Source: an uncultured Enterobacterales bacterium (GTDB taxonomy: Bacteria; Pseudomonadota; Gammaproteobacteria; Enterobacterales; Enterobacteriaceae). From it: DNA of 60,781 nt. The stretch covers positions 1 to 60,781 of the forward strand of contig CAMLBO010000014.1 in NCBI GenBank assembly GCA_946478305.1, in the 5' to 3' direction. A model generated the notes under the pieces. It ran no database searches. It was given only the letters and a program-made list of their open reading frames with translations, and had not been told where the DNA came from. The position numbers and the translations under genes were made by a program. Below, in pieces: positions 44,791 to 51,373 of the stretch (positions are counted from its first letter, which is position 1; each line of letters begins with the position of its first letter).

Positions 44791-45417
44791 CTAATTAACA
44801 TAAATGCCGCCAGTGAACTGGTCGCTCAGGCGAACCACGTGATAAATAATATGTTTATTTGGTGATTTAATTTTACGTTTAATACTTCCTTTATAGGAGG
44901 AAACCGTTTTTACTTTAATGCGTAGTTTATCTGAAATCTGAATCGTGCCTTCCCCTGACATCCACATTTTTAACGTGTTGGATTCGCTGCGGCTGAGCAT
45001 CACCGGCGTGATATCCAGCATTGCAAACTCAAGCCCGGCTAAATCATGATGGTGCAGGTAATTACGTATCAGTTGATTAAGCGTGGCAGTCTTAATCGAT
45101 TTCGATGAAATAATGACGTTTTTTCTGACAAAAACATATTCTTCGAAATGGATCCGTGTTTCAGACATAAAAATAAAGAACAAGGTTTCCGGATAGTGGC
45201 TAATTAAACTTCTTATTTGATCCTTACTTTCACCGTGAGGTTGCAAACACGTTTCATTGATAAACACCACGCCGGGTGTTTTTTGCAGACTACTTAAATT
45301 TAACTGGTCAAAAGTTCGAACAAAACTCACATCCCGCGCCTGAATTCCGTTATCACCTAACGACTGAAGCAGGCCACGGCAGGTAAAACTGCATGAATCT
45401 AAAATTATCGTTTGCAT
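44791..45417 (-). CDS. rcsA: RcsA, capsule (colanic-acid-type) co-activator
   Basis: A 208-residue LuxR-type regulator, partner of RcsB. The family features VVFINE, FDEY/FEEYVFVRKN, ISSKSIK, and the helix-turn-helix LSRSESNTLKMWMSGEGTIQI, KTVSSYKGSIKRKIK, NKHIIYHVVRL are present. The ATG at 45417 has GAGGA seven nt upstream. It should be degraded by Lon and stimulate capsule genes; a perfect RcsAB box about 220 bp upstream suggests autoregulation as in E. coli. Confidence 0.94.
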   Translation of the reverse strand: MQTIILDSCSFTCRGLLQSLGDNGIQARDVSFVRTFDQLNLSSLQKTPGVVFINETCLQPHGESKDQIRSLISHYPETLFFIFMSETRIHFEEYVFVRKNVIISSKSIKTATLNQLIRNYLHHHDLAGLEFAMLDITPVMLSRSESNTLKMWMSGEGTIQISDKLRIKVKTVSSYKGSIKRKIKSPNKHIIYHVVRLSDQFTGGIYVN

Positions 45418-45841
45418 AGTCAATCCTCATAGGACCTCCCTGTTCTTTATCAAGTTTGTATGGTCAATTATCACTGGTGGTGAAAGCCGCAAACGCGTAT
45501 TTCAGATACCTTTTTGCAACAAAAACACACACAGTTCAAAGGTATTTTTCAGTGCCTGAGCGCAAGAGGTGAGTCACTTCAATTTGGCTTAAGTCAATGC
45601 GGGAGGTGCGACGGGGAAAATAATATTTAGCCATTAGGAATATTCTTAATAATGCTAATCACATAGCGTGAAACGTGAAATAAAACTTTAGGATTTTCCT
45701 CATGCAAAGTCATTAGTCGGTTTATTATTCATTAGTCACATGCTTAAAAATTATTCACCTATGTTGTTACTGAACATTCATTGTGCAGGGGGGACAGAGT
45801 AGACGGCCATTAATGACCGTCTGAGAAAACATCAGCATTTT
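45418..45841. other. rcsA upstream region
   Basis: 424 bases, AT-rich and probably with H-NS character. It holds the RcsAB box (45635-45648) and, at 45801-45822, a hairpin (AGACGG / CCGTCT) 20 bases beyond the GH88 stop that may end that operon, although no T-run follows. No gene seen. Confidence 0.6.
45635..45648 (-). promoter_or_regulatory. RcsAB box upstream of rcsA
   Basis: On the minus strand TAAGAATATTCCTA, identical to the remembered RcsAB consensus. Confidence 0.85.
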
Positions 45842-47032
45842 TTACCAGTAGGGTTGCCAGCTTTGTGTCAGCCGTACCAGCGCTTCGACATAAAAATAAT
45901 CCCCCCAGCTTGAACACTGATCCACCCCTTTGCCACTGGCCATGTGATAAACGGAATGTTTGAGCAGACCGTCGCAGTCTTCCTCATCACCGGCCAGATA
46001 GTTGGCAGTCAGCGATGCCATAATCCGCAGCGCTATCTCTTCATAACAGGCCCGGGAAGCATCGCTAGCGGGCAGGGCGGTGACCAGATCCAGCAGGCCA
46101 CAAACGGCGATGGCAGCAGCAGAGCTGTCACGAGCCTGGTCGGTGCCAAGCAGGGCTAAATCCCAATGGCAGACATCATCTTCCGGCAGACGGTTGAGGA
46201 AATAGTGCGCCAGCCGCCGTGATAACTCGACCTGATCCTTGTTCCCGGTGTAACGATAACTCAGCAGGAAACCATAAATCCCCCAGGCCTGGCCGCGGGA
46301 CCAGCACGAGTCGTCAGCATAACCCTGATGCGTGTTGCCAAAGCGAGGAGCACCACTGACCGTATCCATATAGTAAGTGTGGTAGGTGGAAGCATCCGGC
46401 CTGACGATATACTTTGCTGCCTGATGTGCATGGGTACAGGCGGCCTCGGCGTAACGCGCGTCTCCAGTTTGCTGAGTGGCCCAATAGAGCAGCGGCAGGT
46501 TCATATTGCAGTCGATGATCATGCGTCCGGCCTGTTCGGGGTCGCACAGGTCGCCCCACGCCTGAATGATGCCAGACTGCGGATTAAAGCGTTCCAGCAG
46601 GGCATCGGCGGCCAGCAGGGCAAATCCACGCGCCTCCCGGTTGCCGGTCAACCGCCAGGCACTCACGCATGAGAGCGTATAGAGAAAACCGAGGTCGTGG
46701 GTGGCGGTGTCGATGCGGTTGGCGATGCGGCTACCAAACGAAGTGATATGTTTTTCGGCCGCCTGGCGGAATTTGTCATCGCCGGTCATTTCCCAGGCCA
46801 GCCACAGTTGTCCGCTCCAGAAACTGGTGGTCCATTCCACATTATCTGTAAGCGCATAGTGGCCGTTTTCACAGGTTTCGGCCGGGAATTTGCCATCAAA
46901 TTTAGGGATATTGCGGGCAATTTTGCGCAGCACCTGCTGCCGGGCGTTTTCCAGCTGTTGGCGCAGGGCAATTTTGTCCAGTTGATTGAGTTCAACCGTT
47001 AATAATTTTTCTTTGGCAATGGTGATAGTCAT
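45842..47032 (-). CDS. GH88 unsaturated glucuronyl/galacturonyl hydrolase
   Basis: A 396-residue alpha6/alpha6-barrel enzyme of the glycoside hydrolase family 88 type. It should cleave the 4,5-unsaturated uronic acid from the non-reducing end of oligosaccharides made by lyases. Catalytic Asp candidates lie in THDLGFLYTLS and DCNMNLPLLYWA; WTTSFWSGQLWLAWE, RGQAWGIYG and SSWGDYFYVEAL are further family parts. No signal peptide, so it acts in the cytosol on imported oligosaccharide. It is the last gene of the DUF2264-MFS-GH88 operon. Confidence 0.9.
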   Translation of the reverse strand: MTITIAKEKLLTVELNQLDKIALRQQLENARQQVLRKIARNIPKFDGKFPAETCENGHYALTDNVEWTTSFWSGQLWLAWEMTGDDKFRQAAEKHITSFGSRIANRIDTATHDLGFLYTLSCVSAWRLTGNREARGFALLAADALLERFNPQSGIIQAWGDLCDPEQAGRMIIDCNMNLPLLYWATQQTGDARYAEAACTHAHQAAKYIVRPDASTYHTYYMDTVSGAPRFGNTHQGYADDSCWSRGQAWGIYGFLLSYRYTGNKDQVELSRRLAHYFLNRLPEDDVCHWDLALLGTDQARDSSAAAIAVCGLLDLVTALPASDASRACYEEIALRIMASLTANYLAGDEEDCDGLLKHSVYHMASGKGVDQCSSWGDYFYVEALVRLTQSWQPYW

Positions 47033-47061
47033 GGCGATAGGTTCTCCCTTTTAAGGCTGAA

Positions 47062-48360
47062 TCAGCGTTTAACGGTGGTTAAAGGTGCAGAAGCGTTGAT
47101 GTCCGGGGTAGTCACAGAGTTCATGTTGAATTTTTCATCGCGCCGGCTGTAGCAGGCGGAAAGCGTCAGGGTGGAGATCAGGGTAAACAGCAGCGCGATG
47201 CCACCCATAATCAGGTAGGTATGGGCAAAGCCGATGCGGTCGTAGTAATAGCCCGCCGGGGGGGCGACCACGATAGAACCTACATAGATCATTGCCTGAT
47301 AGCCCAGCAGATACATGGTCGCGTTGACGCGTTTATGGAAATGTTCGGCGATATATTTGAAGACGGATACCAGTAGCAGGGCTATTTCCAGCCCGTAGAA
47401 AGGCTTGATGATCGAGATCAGCAGCGGATCGTTTGTCAACCCTGAGGCAATCAGCCGCAACCCCACGACCAGCCCGACCAATAGCAGGCCTCTTTTGGCG
47501 CCGAAATAGTTCACCAGGAACGGGATCACCATCATCATCAGAAACTCCAGGCCTGACTGAACGGTGCTCAGATAGCCATACATGGCATTACCCTGTTCTT
47601 TGGTAGAGAAAAAAGTGACGAAATAACGTGAGAATTGCTGCTCTGCAACAAACATCATCCACGCCACGCCGGCAACGTAGAGTGAGAACATCCAGAATTT
47701 ACGATTTTTCAACAGCAGAATCACATCACCGAAGACGATTTTCTCCTGGGCAATCACATCATTGTTGCGCAGCTCGGCTTCGCCGATTTTTAAAGAGAGA
47801 AGCACGCCAAGCATCAACAACGAAGTCACGCTGCTGAGACTGAAATTCCACGCTGGAGAAAGATTAAACAGGATACCGGAGAAAGAAGCCGCCAATGCCC
47901 AGCCCAGGGAGCCCCACATACGGATTTGCCCGAATTCCATACTGTACAGGCGGCTAAAGCGGTCTGCATAGGACTCCGAGGCTGCTACGCCCGCATACCA
48001 GCCCAGGCTGAGATAAACGGCACCAATCACAATGCCGATCATTAAATGTTTTTCCAGCAAGGGCTGATAAACATAAATAAAGAAGGGGGCCATCATGGCA
48101 GAAATAATAACCACAAAATAAAGCAGGCTTTTACTCATGCCTATTTTATCCATGATATAGCCATAGACAGGTTTCATTATGACGGCGAAAACACCATTAA
48201 TTGCAAATACCGTACCTATGCTCATGCTGTCCAGCCCGGCTTTCTGTCCGAGCCACAATGCATATAAGCCGAAGCTGGATGACCAGGTGAAAAAATACAG
48301 GAATATAAAACTGCTCATTTTGTAATAAGCCGACTTACTGGCGGTTTTAATGGCTTTCAT
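47062..48360 (-). CDS. MFS oligosaccharide:H+ symporter
   Basis: A 432-residue twelve-segment transporter resembling the oligosaccharide:H+ symporter family (LacY/RafB type): FLYFFTWSSSFGLYALWL, GTVFAINGVFAVIMKPVYGYIMDKIG and FGQIRMWGSLGWA are characteristic. Its start overlaps DUF2264 by ATGA and it is followed at 29 bp by GH88. By context it should import the unsaturated oligosaccharide used by GH88. Confidence 0.88.
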   Translation of the reverse strand: MKAIKTASKSAYYKMSSFIFLYFFTWSSSFGLYALWLGQKAGLDSMSIGTVFAINGVFAVIMKPVYGYIMDKIGMSKSLLYFVVIISAMMAPFFIYVYQPLLEKHLMIGIVIGAVYLSLGWYAGVAASESYADRFSRLYSMEFGQIRMWGSLGWALAASFSGILFNLSPAWNFSLSSVTSLLMLGVLLSLKIGEAELRNNDVIAQEKIVFGDVILLLKNRKFWMFSLYVAGVAWMMFVAEQQFSRYFVTFFSTKEQGNAMYGYLSTVQSGLEFLMMMVIPFLVNYFGAKRGLLLVGLVVGLRLIASGLTNDPLLISIIKPFYGLEIALLLVSVFKYIAEHFHKRVNATMYLLGYQAMIYVGSIVVAPPAGYYYDRIGFAHTYLIMGGIALLFTLISTLTLSACYSRRDEKFNMNSVTTPDINASAPLTTVKR

Positions 48361-50210
48361 ATTGACTCCTGAATATTGAGTGCGACACACCAGTTGCGGC
48401 CCTGATAATGAATATGCACGTGTTGATCATCACGCCTGACGACTGGCAATGTCAGGCTCTCCGCTGTTGTATTCGCTGAGGCAAATACTGCTGACATGAG
48501 CCAGTGCGAACCGGGTTGCAGAGTGATTTTTAGCACCGGGATAGCCGCCGTTTCGGCAAACATAATGCTGCTGTTGGGCGGGGTGACCACCGTTGCTGCC
48601 TCACGCGGCGCATCATCTCCTATGCTGGCCATCAGGCTGCTGCCATTGCAGGCGATAATCCGGCAAGACGTTCTCTTCGGGTAAAATTCTACCTGCGTCT
48701 GGCGGTTATGGATGACGGCGAATCCTCCTTCCACCGCATCCAGTGTGCGGGCCGTAGTGACCTGGTGCAGACGCAGATGGCCGTCTGCGCAGGGGATAAG
48801 CCAGGTTTTTACCTCCACGTCATGCCATGCCAGCCAGCGTGAATAGATCGCATCCTGGCCAATCCGGGTCTCTTCACAACCCCGACGACCCCGGTAGTAA
48901 CCGTCCTGTTCGGACAGCACCAGCATGGAATCGCAGGCGGCATGGTTCAGGCCATAACGTCCACGGTCAAGCGTGAAGCCGAACTGACTGGAATAGGCAA
49001 ATTTGGTGTATTTGGCTTCTGTATTGACGAAGTTATTCAGCTCGAGCTGGCCGGAGGTGAGCATCACCACGTGTTGCTGTCGGGCATCGTGCAGCAGGAT
49101 CTGGTTGGCATGAGGAATAGAGTGCGGATTTTCCCTCTGTGGCAGCGGGAGCTCTTCGGCTTGCCAGAAAGCATGACCTTCAGGCAGTGCCAGGACCAGA
49201 AAGAGTTTACAGGCCCAGTAGGGGGAGCCGGGCGCGTTGTAATCTTCGGCCATCACCAGATTTGGCGTGTGATAACCGATGCTCAGTACACCATCGCGGT
49301 CAAATATCGGCTGTTTCAGCCAGTGGCGCAGGTGGCGCAAAATCAGCCCCTTCACCACGCCGGGGGAGTACACTTCCAGCCCGCTGAAGGCGGCGGCGCT
49401 CCAGAATGCTGCTTCAGCAAACCGGTAGGTGAGGCTGCGGCCAAAGGGCACCGCTGAGCCGTCGGCGGAAAACAGCGTAATGAAATCCTGCGCAAAGCGC
49501 TGCGCTCTTGAGCGCAGGGTGGCGCAGCGTTCGGCATCCACATCGGCCATGTGCGTGGCATACAGCAGCCCGTAATAGTGAAATGCCATCGAAATGTAGT
49601 AATCGCGAGGGCGGCCGGGGCCATCAGAGTACCAGCCGTCCCCCAGATAGTAGGCCTCCATCAGCGCAAAGCGCTCTTCGACCGCTGCCCGATCCCACGG
49701 CAGACCAGCCTGTTTACAGCCCATCTGCACCATGATCGGGAAGTAATTCCAGTTATTATTGGGAATAGTGGCGCGGGTTCCCTGATTGAGCCAGGCAATC
49801 AGGTTGCGCTGTTCCTGAGGGCTGAACCAGGCGAGAAGCCGTTTATCCAGCAAAGCCAGCCCGACGCCAAACGCCGCCATCTCTACACAGCGCTGGTCGA
49901 AGTCCCAGATATCCCCCCAGTACTCCCCATGTTGAGGATGAGTGCCGTTGCGGATTGCGGTAAGATAAAACGAGAGGTTATCGCACTCTTCGCCCGAAGC
50001 CAGAAGGGGGAAAATTCCCCACAACATGCGGGACAGCGCTTCCATTTTGGCGATCTGTTTACCGTAATGGGTTGTGGTGTTGCCCAGATCGATACCGCTT
50101 TTACCTTCCTCGGTATAAGGCGTGACTGCCGACAGCAATTCACTCAGCAGAGTTTTTACCTGCTGACGATCGCGCAATGGATTCTCCGTATTGATCTTTA
50201 TCTGGCTCAT
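48357..50210 (-). CDS. DUF2264 family protein
   Basis: A 617-residue cytosolic protein of DUF2264 (first part about 10-370: GIFPLLASGEECDN, HPQHGEYWGDIWDFDQRCVE, NNNWNYFPIMV, DGWYSDGPGRPRDYY; then a beta-rich half). The helical half resembles six-hairpin glycosidases and lyases; the activity is not known to me. It is the first gene of the operon, 61 bp from a KdgR box, with GGAG before the ATG. Confidence 0.85.
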   Translation of the reverse strand: MSQIKINTENPLRDRQQVKTLLSELLSAVTPYTEEGKSGIDLGNTTTHYGKQIAKMEALSRMLWGIFPLLASGEECDNLSFYLTAIRNGTHPQHGEYWGDIWDFDQRCVEMAAFGVGLALLDKRLLAWFSPQEQRNLIAWLNQGTRATIPNNNWNYFPIMVQMGCKQAGLPWDRAAVEERFALMEAYYLGDGWYSDGPGRPRDYYISMAFHYYGLLYATHMADVDAERCATLRSRAQRFAQDFITLFSADGSAVPFGRSLTYRFAEAAFWSAAAFSGLEVYSPGVVKGLILRHLRHWLKQPIFDRDGVLSIGYHTPNLVMAEDYNAPGSPYWACKLFLVLALPEGHAFWQAEELPLPQRENPHSIPHANQILLHDARQQHVVMLTSGQLELNNFVNTEAKYTKFAYSSQFGFTLDRGRYGLNHAACDSMLVLSEQDGYYRGRRGCEETRIGQDAIYSRWLAWHDVEVKTWLIPCADGHLRLHQVTTARTLDAVEGGFAVIHNRQTQVEFYPKRTSCRIIACNGSSLMASIGDDAPREAATVVTPPNSSIMFAETAAIPVLKITLQPGSHWLMSAVFASANTTAESLTLPVVRRDDQHVHIHYQGRNWCVALNIQESI

Positions 50211-50521
50211 TTTACGCTCCGCACTGCTTAGGGTCGTTGGAAGGAATTAAAAACCTTATAAAAGCATTTATATGAAATATTGTTTCATTTTTTTGTTTTT
50301 TCTATTTCAGGGTTTTTTATTTCCGTATTTATAGTTATCGAAATATAGAGAATTTACCTGGTCTGATTGTTATGCGGCTCACATAATGCTGCAATTTTTA
50401 AAATTGATATTGTCGTGACCGGTGAAAAAGGGCTTAAATTGCAAAATTCAGCCAGAAAATTGTAATTCCTTGTCATTACGTCTTTTCCAGCTGATGACCT
50501 TTTGCTCAGAGGAAGATAAAG
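50211..50521. promoter_or_regulatory. Divergent control region of the DUF2264 operon and araC-type gene
   Basis: 311 bases, AT-rich, with T-rich stretches around 50285-50320. The only strong element I see is the KdgR box at 50271-50289. Sites for the AraC-type protein are likely but not identifiable. Confidence 0.6.
50271..50289. promoter_or_regulatory. KdgR box
   Basis: TATGAAATATTGTTTCATT agrees with 18 of 19 positions of the remembered KdgR consensus AATRAAAYRNYRTTTYATT. It lies 61 bp upstream of the DUF2264 ATG. KdgR is the pectin/2-keto-3-deoxygluconate repressor of enterobacteria. Confidence 0.75.
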
Positions 50522-51373
50522 ATGGCGGTGACCGACTTTCTTGAACGCATAGCCCTTAATGACCGGCAGATCTCGTTTAACCGGATGAACAAAGGTAGTG
50601 CTAACTATTTTCACTGGCACCAGTGTCTGGAGATGCTGTTTGTCAGCCGCGGATACGGCATCGTGATGGTTGATAATCAACAATACACGCTGCGACCGGG
50701 ACGGCTATTTGTGTTCCCGCCATTCAAACTGCATAAAGTTTTTGTCGTACAGACGGATAAAAACCACTATGAGCGGACGACGGTACATCTCGATCATCAG
50801 CTGCTTGATGGTTTTTTGCAGCCTTTCCCGCAGCGCCAGGCCCGATTTGCGCGCCTGTGGGACAGTAACCGTGATTCGCATATCTATGACCTGACAGCCA
50901 GCGCGGTACATATCGAGGCGATACTCGAGCATTTCCATCAACTGCAACAGGCCGGAGCCCATCATTGGGAGGATATCGCTATGCTGGTATTGCAGCTGAT
51001 GGCTTTTATGCCTGAACAGGAAGGGCAGCAGAAAACCATCAGCCGAACCACGGCGTCGAAGGTGATGCAATGGATTGAGGAGAATTACGTACAGAAGTTC
51101 TCCCTGGCGGAGTTATCGGCATCGGTGGGATTATCGCAAAGCTACATTTCACGGGTATTCAGTCAGGAAACCGGTGGGTCGATTGCGGATTTTCTGGCGA
51201 CGCGGCGCATTAAACGTGCTTGTGAGTTACTGCGTTCAACCGATCTTTCGGTAGAAGCGGTCGGCAGCCAGTGCGGGTTTGCCGACGCTCCCTATTTTAT
51301 TACCTGTTTTCGGAAACTTATTGGCAGAACGCCGCTGCAATATCGCAAGGCGGCGTTGCGCCTGGAGCTTTAA
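50522..51373 (+). CDS. AraC-family transcriptional regulator
   Basis: A 283-residue regulator: cupin sensor domain (about 20-100, FHWHQCLEMLFVSRGYG, LRPGRLFVFPPFKLH) and two helix-turn-helix motifs at the C-terminus (LAELSASVGLSQSYISRVF, VEAVGSQCGFADAPYFITCFRK). GAGGAAG precedes the ATG. Divergent from the DUF2264-MFS-GH88 operon, of which it is probably the specific activator. Confidence 0.92.
   Translation: MAVTDFLERIALNDRQISFNRMNKGSANYFHWHQCLEMLFVSRGYGIVMVDNQQYTLRPGRLFVFPPFKLHKVFVVQTDKNHYERTTVHLDHQLLDGFLQPFPQRQARFARLWDSNRDSHIYDLTASAVHIEAILEHFHQLQQAGAHHWEDIAMLVLQLMAFMPEQEGQQKTISRTTASKVMQWIEENYVQKFSLAELSASVGLSQSYISRVFSQETGGSIADFLATRRIKRACELLRSTDLSVEAVGSQCGFADAPYFITCFRKLIGRTPLQYRKAALRLEL

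Follow-up and report, generated by a model that had tools for sequence, protein, structure and literature searches.

In polysaccharide utilization locus (PUL) 25 of Bacteroides caccae, the DUF2264/GH154 dehydratase BcGDH primes a saturated glucuronic acid (GlcA) end for the hydrolase BcGH88 (PMC12269599). The GH154 founder, BT_3677 of Bacteroides thetaiotaomicron, is reported to have a second domain near its active site and to act as a dehydratase on methyl β-D-glucuronate; it belongs to an arabinogalactan pathway of a Bacteroidota and is described as an arabinogalactan β-1,6-glucuronidase whose turn comes once the GH145 enzyme BT3686 has acted (PMC12943147). The P29_PDnc–GH105 pair of ulvan degradation likewise combines a dehydratase with an unsaturated uronyl hydrolase (PMC8511951), but the dehydratase is reported to be unrelated in sequence and its partner is GH105, not GH88 (PMC12269599). 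Dehydration followed by GH88 hydrolysis is already known from Bacteroides. Here we analyse a 60,781-nt stretch (the window) on contig CAMLBO010000014.1 of assembly GCA_946478305.1, from an uncultured Enterobacterales bacterium (Enterobacteriaceae), in which genes for a DUF2264 protein, a LacY-type symporter of the major facilitator superfamily (MFS) and a GH88 hydrolase lie beside a divergent AraC-family regulator gene (Table 1).

The window locus differs from the B. caccae system, whose dehydratase has one domain and whose PUL holds a PL35 lyase and a GH109 (PMC12269599): here the DUF2264 protein has two domains, the importer is LacY-type, the operon contains no lyase, and AraC is accompanied by CRP-like and KdgR-like elements. 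BT_3677, as described, shares the second domain. Among the literature matches listed, with subscription journals mostly outside their scope, no description of a LacY-fed, KdgR-linked cytosolic arrangement in Enterobacterales was found; a term search of the available text of PMC12877422 found no mention of GH154 or a dehydratase, and the available text of PMC11739564 merely lists GH154.

A predicted dehydrate-then-cut operon

We conclude that the locus is likely a glucuronide operon working by dehydration before hydrolysis, and not a pectin pathway; with the arabinogalactan substrate discussed below left out of account, we hold this dehydrate-then-cut reading with good confidence. The DUF2264 stop and MFS start share an ATGA overlap that suggests translational coupling, and 29 nt separate MFS from GH88, so a single DUF2264–MFS–GH88 operon is likely. 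This bears out the operon and divergent AraC gene proposed in a first-pass annotation, as do the Pfam matches. No obvious signal peptide was seen by eye on DUF2264 or GH88.

Table 1 Features of the window locus, and related loci carrying DJ-1/PfpI relatives
Feature	Position	Strand	Remark
DUF2264 protein, 617 aa, PF10022 + PF20938	48357-50210	-	predicted β-D-glucuronate 4,5-dehydratase
LacY-family symporter (MFS), 432 aa from ATG at 48360	47062-48360	-	predicted glucuronide importer
GH88, unsaturated glucuronyl hydrolase type, 396 aa	45842-47032	-	D113, D174 predicted catalytic
AraC-family regulator, 283 aa	50522-51373	+	divergent; predicted activator
KdgR-like box TATGAAATATTGTTTCATT	50271-50289	not assigned	60 nt before DUF2264 start
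CRP-like site TGTGAGCCGCATAACA	50368-50383	-	matches 9/10 specified positions
ATGA overlap, DUF2264 stop/MFS start	48357-48360	-	read from sequence
DJ-1/PfpI relatives	L090-L094, L096, L098, L144, L106-L110, L113, L119, L122, L128		

The DUF2264 protein scored 398 bits against PF10022 (cut-off 25) and 145 bits against PF20938. Tested for GH154 membership, its predicted structure showed the BcGDH fold. VIA-align gave a second look at Foldseek's list, where the absence of a family is not informative. All ten GH154 active-site residues (E74, R78, N176, N177, W178, F181, Y229, R285, Y289 and Y354) are present; to follow the published numbering, the chain was shifted manually by 5. Since tested DUF2264/GH154-family members dehydrate saturated β-D-glucuronate and release water, not sugar (PMC12269599), no lyase would be required; by analogy, the protein likely removes water from a saturated glucuronate end to leave a Δ4,5-unsaturated glucuronyl group. 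The earlier proposal that DUF2264 acts on the same imported oligosaccharide as GH88 is likely right.

Two other functions can be weighed against this assignment. DUF2264 might be an exo-lyase that eliminates a sugar such as L-rhamnose from O4 of the glucuronate, with GH88 cutting the same end. The model's α-toroid and β-sandwich resemble polysaccharide lyases, the chemistry proposed for BcGDH is itself lyase-like (PMC12269599), and a locus without DUF2264 encodes a GH145-like protein in which two of the three lyase residues are in place (see below); we nonetheless think an exo-lyase unlikely, given the water released by tested relatives and the ten residues kept. Earlier reports of BT3677 and BD-β-Gal as glycosidases, the original GH154 assignment, would instead make DUF2264 a true β-glucuronidase or β-galactosidase, with GH88 serving another branch (PMC12269599, PMC12943147). 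We consider this highly improbable: in the 2025 work aryl-glycosidase activity was gone after further purification and no glycosidase-like site was found (PMC12269599), and the constant GH88 pairing documented below would be left unexplained.

The GH88 protein scored 54.5 bits against PF07470 (cut-off 26.6), and among solved structures it comes closest to unsaturated glucuronyl hydrolases (UGLs), led by those of S. agalactiae (352 bits) and Bacillus (350 bits). Solved-structure matches at E ≤ 0.001 comprised eight distinct sequences, none named GH105. D113, which lines up with the residue changed in 3vxd (D115N), and D174, which we take to be the second catalytic Asp, are kept in 14 of 14 sequences, the window's included. 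Judged by these matches, the operon enzyme belongs with the glucuronyl (UGL) hydrolases and not with GH105. GH88 and GH105 enzymes need an unsaturated end on their substrate (PMC8511951), as the first-pass annotation rightly held for this GH88.

The symporter scored 359 bits against PF01306 (LacY_symp) and 241 bits against LacY. The window protein and nine relatives all keep E126, R144 and W151, presumably sugar-site residues as in LacY, along with R302, K319 and E325, which we take to serve coupling; all ten carry the substitutions E269S, N272E and H322Y. Because E269 and H322 are galactoside-binding residues in LacY, their replacement by Ser and Tyr suggests a substrate unlike lactose.

In the route we propose, all reactions, transport, regulation and the substrate are predicted; what is observed is the order of the genes, the families and active-site residues of their products, the pairing of the two enzyme genes, and the presence of kdgR, kduI and kduD. 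The symporter would import a sugar with a saturated β-D-glucuronic acid end, DUF2264 would convert that end to its Δ4,5-unsaturated form, and GH88 would then cut off the unsaturated glucuronyl. KduI and KduD would convert the released unsaturated uronate (5-keto-4-deoxyuronate) to 2-keto-3-deoxygluconate, which is the inducer for KdgR. The imported sugar would be the signal for AraC, and catabolite control would come from CRP. The genome encodes KdgR (83% identical to that of E. coli), KduI (76%) and KduD. A KdgR-like box without pectin would be explained because the product route ends in the KdgR inducer.

DUF2264 and GH88 genes occur together

We searched an order-level sample of 394 genomes and a family-level sample of 392, own genome included; not every candidate per genome was scored, so counts are lower bounds. 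PF10022 occurred in at least 28 of the order-level genomes: our own, 15 others of its family and 12 of other families. The AraC–DUF2264–MFS–GH88 order and orientation, with AraC divergent, recurred in all 26 related long-form loci fetched (15 own-family and 11 other Enterobacterales contig-scan loci), a set that may include a species more than once and in which L010 and L099 have an identical intergenic region. In the 12 other-family genomes the PF10022 matches were shorter or split, and the stretches fetched around them held no match to the window's GH88 or MFS; mannose-type phosphotransferase system (PTS) components matched at six (L109, L111-L115). Among the loci with shorter DUF2264 genes in other families of the order (L105-L117), six have matches to a mannose-type PTS, six a DJ-1-like gene and four a distant GH105-like gene; they may represent another form of the pathway, supplied through a PTS.

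The pairing was tight in the family sample. At least 115 of the 392 genomes had a DUF2264 match at 1e-20, and 96 held at least 107 long-form matches (≥500 bits), every one with GH88 within 8 kb. In 105 of these 107, GH88 lay 1.3–2.0 kb downstream on the same strand, the exceptions being on the opposite strand (G605) or upstream (G491). GH88 was also within 8 kb of all five DUF2264 matches at 150–500 bits and of 1 of 17 weaker ones, which are frames of 490–550 aa bar one fragment. Conversely, a DUF2264 match stood near 113 of 134 GH88 matches, and near 92 of the 94 scoring at least 580 bits; in G570, G483, G681 and G701 it was fragmentary or split up. That GH154 co-localises with GH88 and GH105 had already been noted via STRING (PMC12269599). 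Megablast gave no match to the operon in E. coli.

DUF2264, MFS or GH88 is in several pieces in G681 (L145), G483 and G414, as decayed copies or through assembly errors. Ten genomes (G401, G413, G475, G491, G510, G515, G668, G670, G728 and G738) carry two or three DUF2264 matches scoring 500 bits or more, and a GH88 match lies close to every one; the second set is about 47–52% identical to the window's, which suggests different substrates. The own genome has a DJ-1/PfpI-family gene at C19 (see below), and relatives of it (about 43–64% identical) recur at these loci. Of the 15 order-level long-form operons, 7 have one directly after GH88, as does L144; in six loci its distance from a shorter DUF2264 gene is about 3 kb or less, and in L119, L122 and L128 it is 3–5 kb from GH88. 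Such a protein may tend the reactive dicarbonyl product.

Control elements and the pectin question

The operon box matches 18 of 19 positions of a KdgR consensus and is the sole site with two or fewer mismatches in the window. Compared by hand together with its flanks, it agrees with the D. dadantii consensus AAATGAAACAnTGTTTCATTT at 18 of the 20 positions that are defined (PMC5559549). A genome scan with a slightly relaxed pattern found five zero-mismatch places in 4.87 Mb, the operon box among them, and 23 strand matches with at most one mismatch, versus 3 for the reversed pattern. Of the four other zero-mismatch places, one precedes kduI and, divergently, the gene of a 110-aa cupin (presumably KdgF), one falls between ppsA and ppsR, one precedes an RpiB-like gene, and one is 28 nt upstream of a DJ-1/PfpI-family gene (L056:3174-3785, own genome C19). 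One-mismatch boxes precede a YhcH/YjgK-family gene and, by 75 nt, a locus for a GPH permease and a GH105 enzyme (own genome C24, L052:2500-5370), and several others sit in or before genes without such a link. The operon box therefore looks like part of an apparent KdgR regulon of putative sites, and the KdgR link drawn by the first-pass annotation stands.

Its pectic reading fared less well. On that account, GH88 would act on the products of pectin or rhamnogalacturonan lyases and DUF2264 would be a further glycosidase or lyase, as the KdgR-like box and the need of GH88 and GH105 for an unsaturated end might suggest. The operon GH88, however, matches glucuronyl hydrolases, the operon has no GH105-type hydrolase, and tested DUF2264-family members are dehydratases (PMC12269599). 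The genome's other PF07470 gene, at C24, is a GH105 (718 bits to 3qwt); its locus resembles ours in having a KdgR-like box, an importer and an unsaturated uronyl hydrolase, differs in its GPH permease, GH105 and lack of DUF2264, and is probably a rhamnogalacturonide (rhiTN-like) locus. Oligogalacturonate lyase (PF14583) and pectate lyase (PF00544) were not found in the 192 contigs, a search that did not extend to GH28, PF06917 or other pectinase and lyase families. We regard a pectic pathway as unlikely. As for uidA, the genome's two GH2 matches are β-galactosidase types (1627.9 and 1815 bits to β-galactosidase models) and scored 128.9 and 128.4 bits against the β-glucuronidase model (cut-off 544); GH79 and GH1 glucuronidases were not searched.

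The box is not a universal operon feature but a lineage-specific one. It scored 16–18 of 19 in 13 of the 26 intergenic regions, a score reached by 0–11 of 300 shuffles. In the lineage to which the window belongs (window, L002, L003 and L101) it lies 48–60 nt ahead of DUF2264, and in the other box-bearing regions about 114–142 nt before the aligned start; the remaining 13 regions scored 14–15, reached by 19–102 of 300 shuffles. A CRP-like site (TGTGA-N6-TAACA or TCACT, 9/10 match, same strand) is present in 25 of 26 distinct AraC–DUF2264 intergenic regions, the window's included. Because this site is near-universal and the KdgR-like box is in half of the regions, AraC plus CRP looks like the ancestral control, with KdgR added in some lineages. 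Scanning 50150-50560 for promoters gave no sigma-70-like site, against 1.4 expected by chance.

GH88 loci without DUF2264 and GH145-like genes

Sixteen of 21 GH88 loci without DUF2264 were fetched (G530, G727, two in G465 and G596 were left out). Thirteen (L120-L123, L125-L133) have a mannose-type PTS EIIC and EIID nearby, with a LevR-like activator in 11 and a KdgM-like porin in 6. Their GH88 is of the same family and 38–54% identical to the window's, but they differ in their PTS, activator and lack of DUF2264; neither the window nor the flanks of the 26 long-form loci held an EIIC or EIID match. The other three retain a LacY-type MFS and AraC: DUF2264 is lost in L118 (G629), is a remnant in L124 (G487, which has the full operon elsewhere) and is replaced in L119 (G588) by a 438-aa BNR_4 protein.

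The best solved relatives of this BNR_4 protein are GH145 structures (5mum, 5mvh and 5muk) and, more weakly, L-rhamnose-α-1,4-D-glucuronate lyases (7esl); it scored 187 bits against the NCBIfam model of BT3686, below the cut-off of 700. GH145 proteins can act on Rha-GlcA arabinogalactan ends as rhamnosidases (posterior His48) or lyases (anterior His90, Tyr143 and Arg333) (PMC8406133, PMC8377490). Relatives of the L119 gene occur in 16 of 392 genomes, and the family search found none in our own; in G410 and G681 the gene lies about 2 kb upstream of the DUF2264 operon, with two AraC genes between. In an alignment of 12 distinct genes (15 rows, of which 3 were duplicates), all keep the His90 and Tyr143 equivalents, and Arg333 could not be placed. 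His48 is present in seven (L138-L141, L143, L144 and L145, the latter two beside a DUF2264 operon), gapped in four (L136, L146, which is the L119 gene, L147 and L148) and Tyr in L142. L146, L147 and L148 are cassettes without DUF2264; genomes G627, G693 and G752 have the gapped type and a DUF2264 operon elsewhere. These few, related cases fit the idea that GH145 hydrolysis would leave a saturated GlcA needing the dehydratase and elimination would not. The three cassettes combine the GH145-like protein with a LacY-type MFS (46–47% identical to the window's) and a KdgM-like porin; no GH88 match was found within the stretch fetched for L147 and L148.

Candidate substrates

The role described for BT3677, the GH145-like neighbours and the galactoside-permease-family importer point to GlcA-β-Gal-type fragments, and we tentatively suggest, at somewhat less than even chances, a β-glucuronosyl-galactose-type fragment of plant arabinogalactan as the substrate. 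The Ser and Tyr that replace E269 and H322 in all ten symporters weigh against it. The same dehydrate-then-cut chemistry might serve a glycosaminoglycan-type or other β-glucuronide, a reading that overlaps the preferred one in mechanism and that we rate as possible, if rather less so. BcGDH acts on chondrosine (PMC12269599), and the operon GH88 is closest to UGLs, one of them named an unsaturated chondroitin disaccharide hydrolase; yet the GH88 paralogues that go with a mannose-type PTS sit in a distinct type of locus, the two-domain BT_3677 is described as inactive on chondrosine, and the GH145-like partners point to Rha-GlcA ends.

If arabinogalactan is the source, a broader picture can be sketched, to which we give slightly less credence than to the substrate itself. 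An unrecognised third β-glucuronide route, neither UidA–uronate isomerase nor polysaccharide lyase, would operate in 96 of 392 family genomes by cytosolic dehydration of an imported arabinogalactan fragment and GH88 cleavage. It would end in the KdgR inducer and, in some lineages, link the use of arabinogalactan with the pectin regulon. The same GH88 would receive its substrate from GH145-like enzymes by hydrolysis, with DUF2264 needed, or by elimination, without it, and the DJ-1-like protein would tend the reactive product. The dehydrate-then-cut proposal offers a testable function for DUF2264, a domain so far without one that stands near GH88 in those genomes. If true, chemistry described in gut Bacteroides in 2025 would extend to Enterobacterales, the KdgR-like box before a non-pectic operon would have a reason, and strains without uidA could still use β-glucuronides with no glucuronate released, by a route that would dispense with pectin-cutting enzymes and classical glucuronidases alike.

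Neighbouring gene

A gene for the regulator RcsA, which has no known link to the operon, adjoins it in the window (44791-45423, minus strand; NF011940, 249.5 bits) and was also found by tblastn in L002, L004 and L101.

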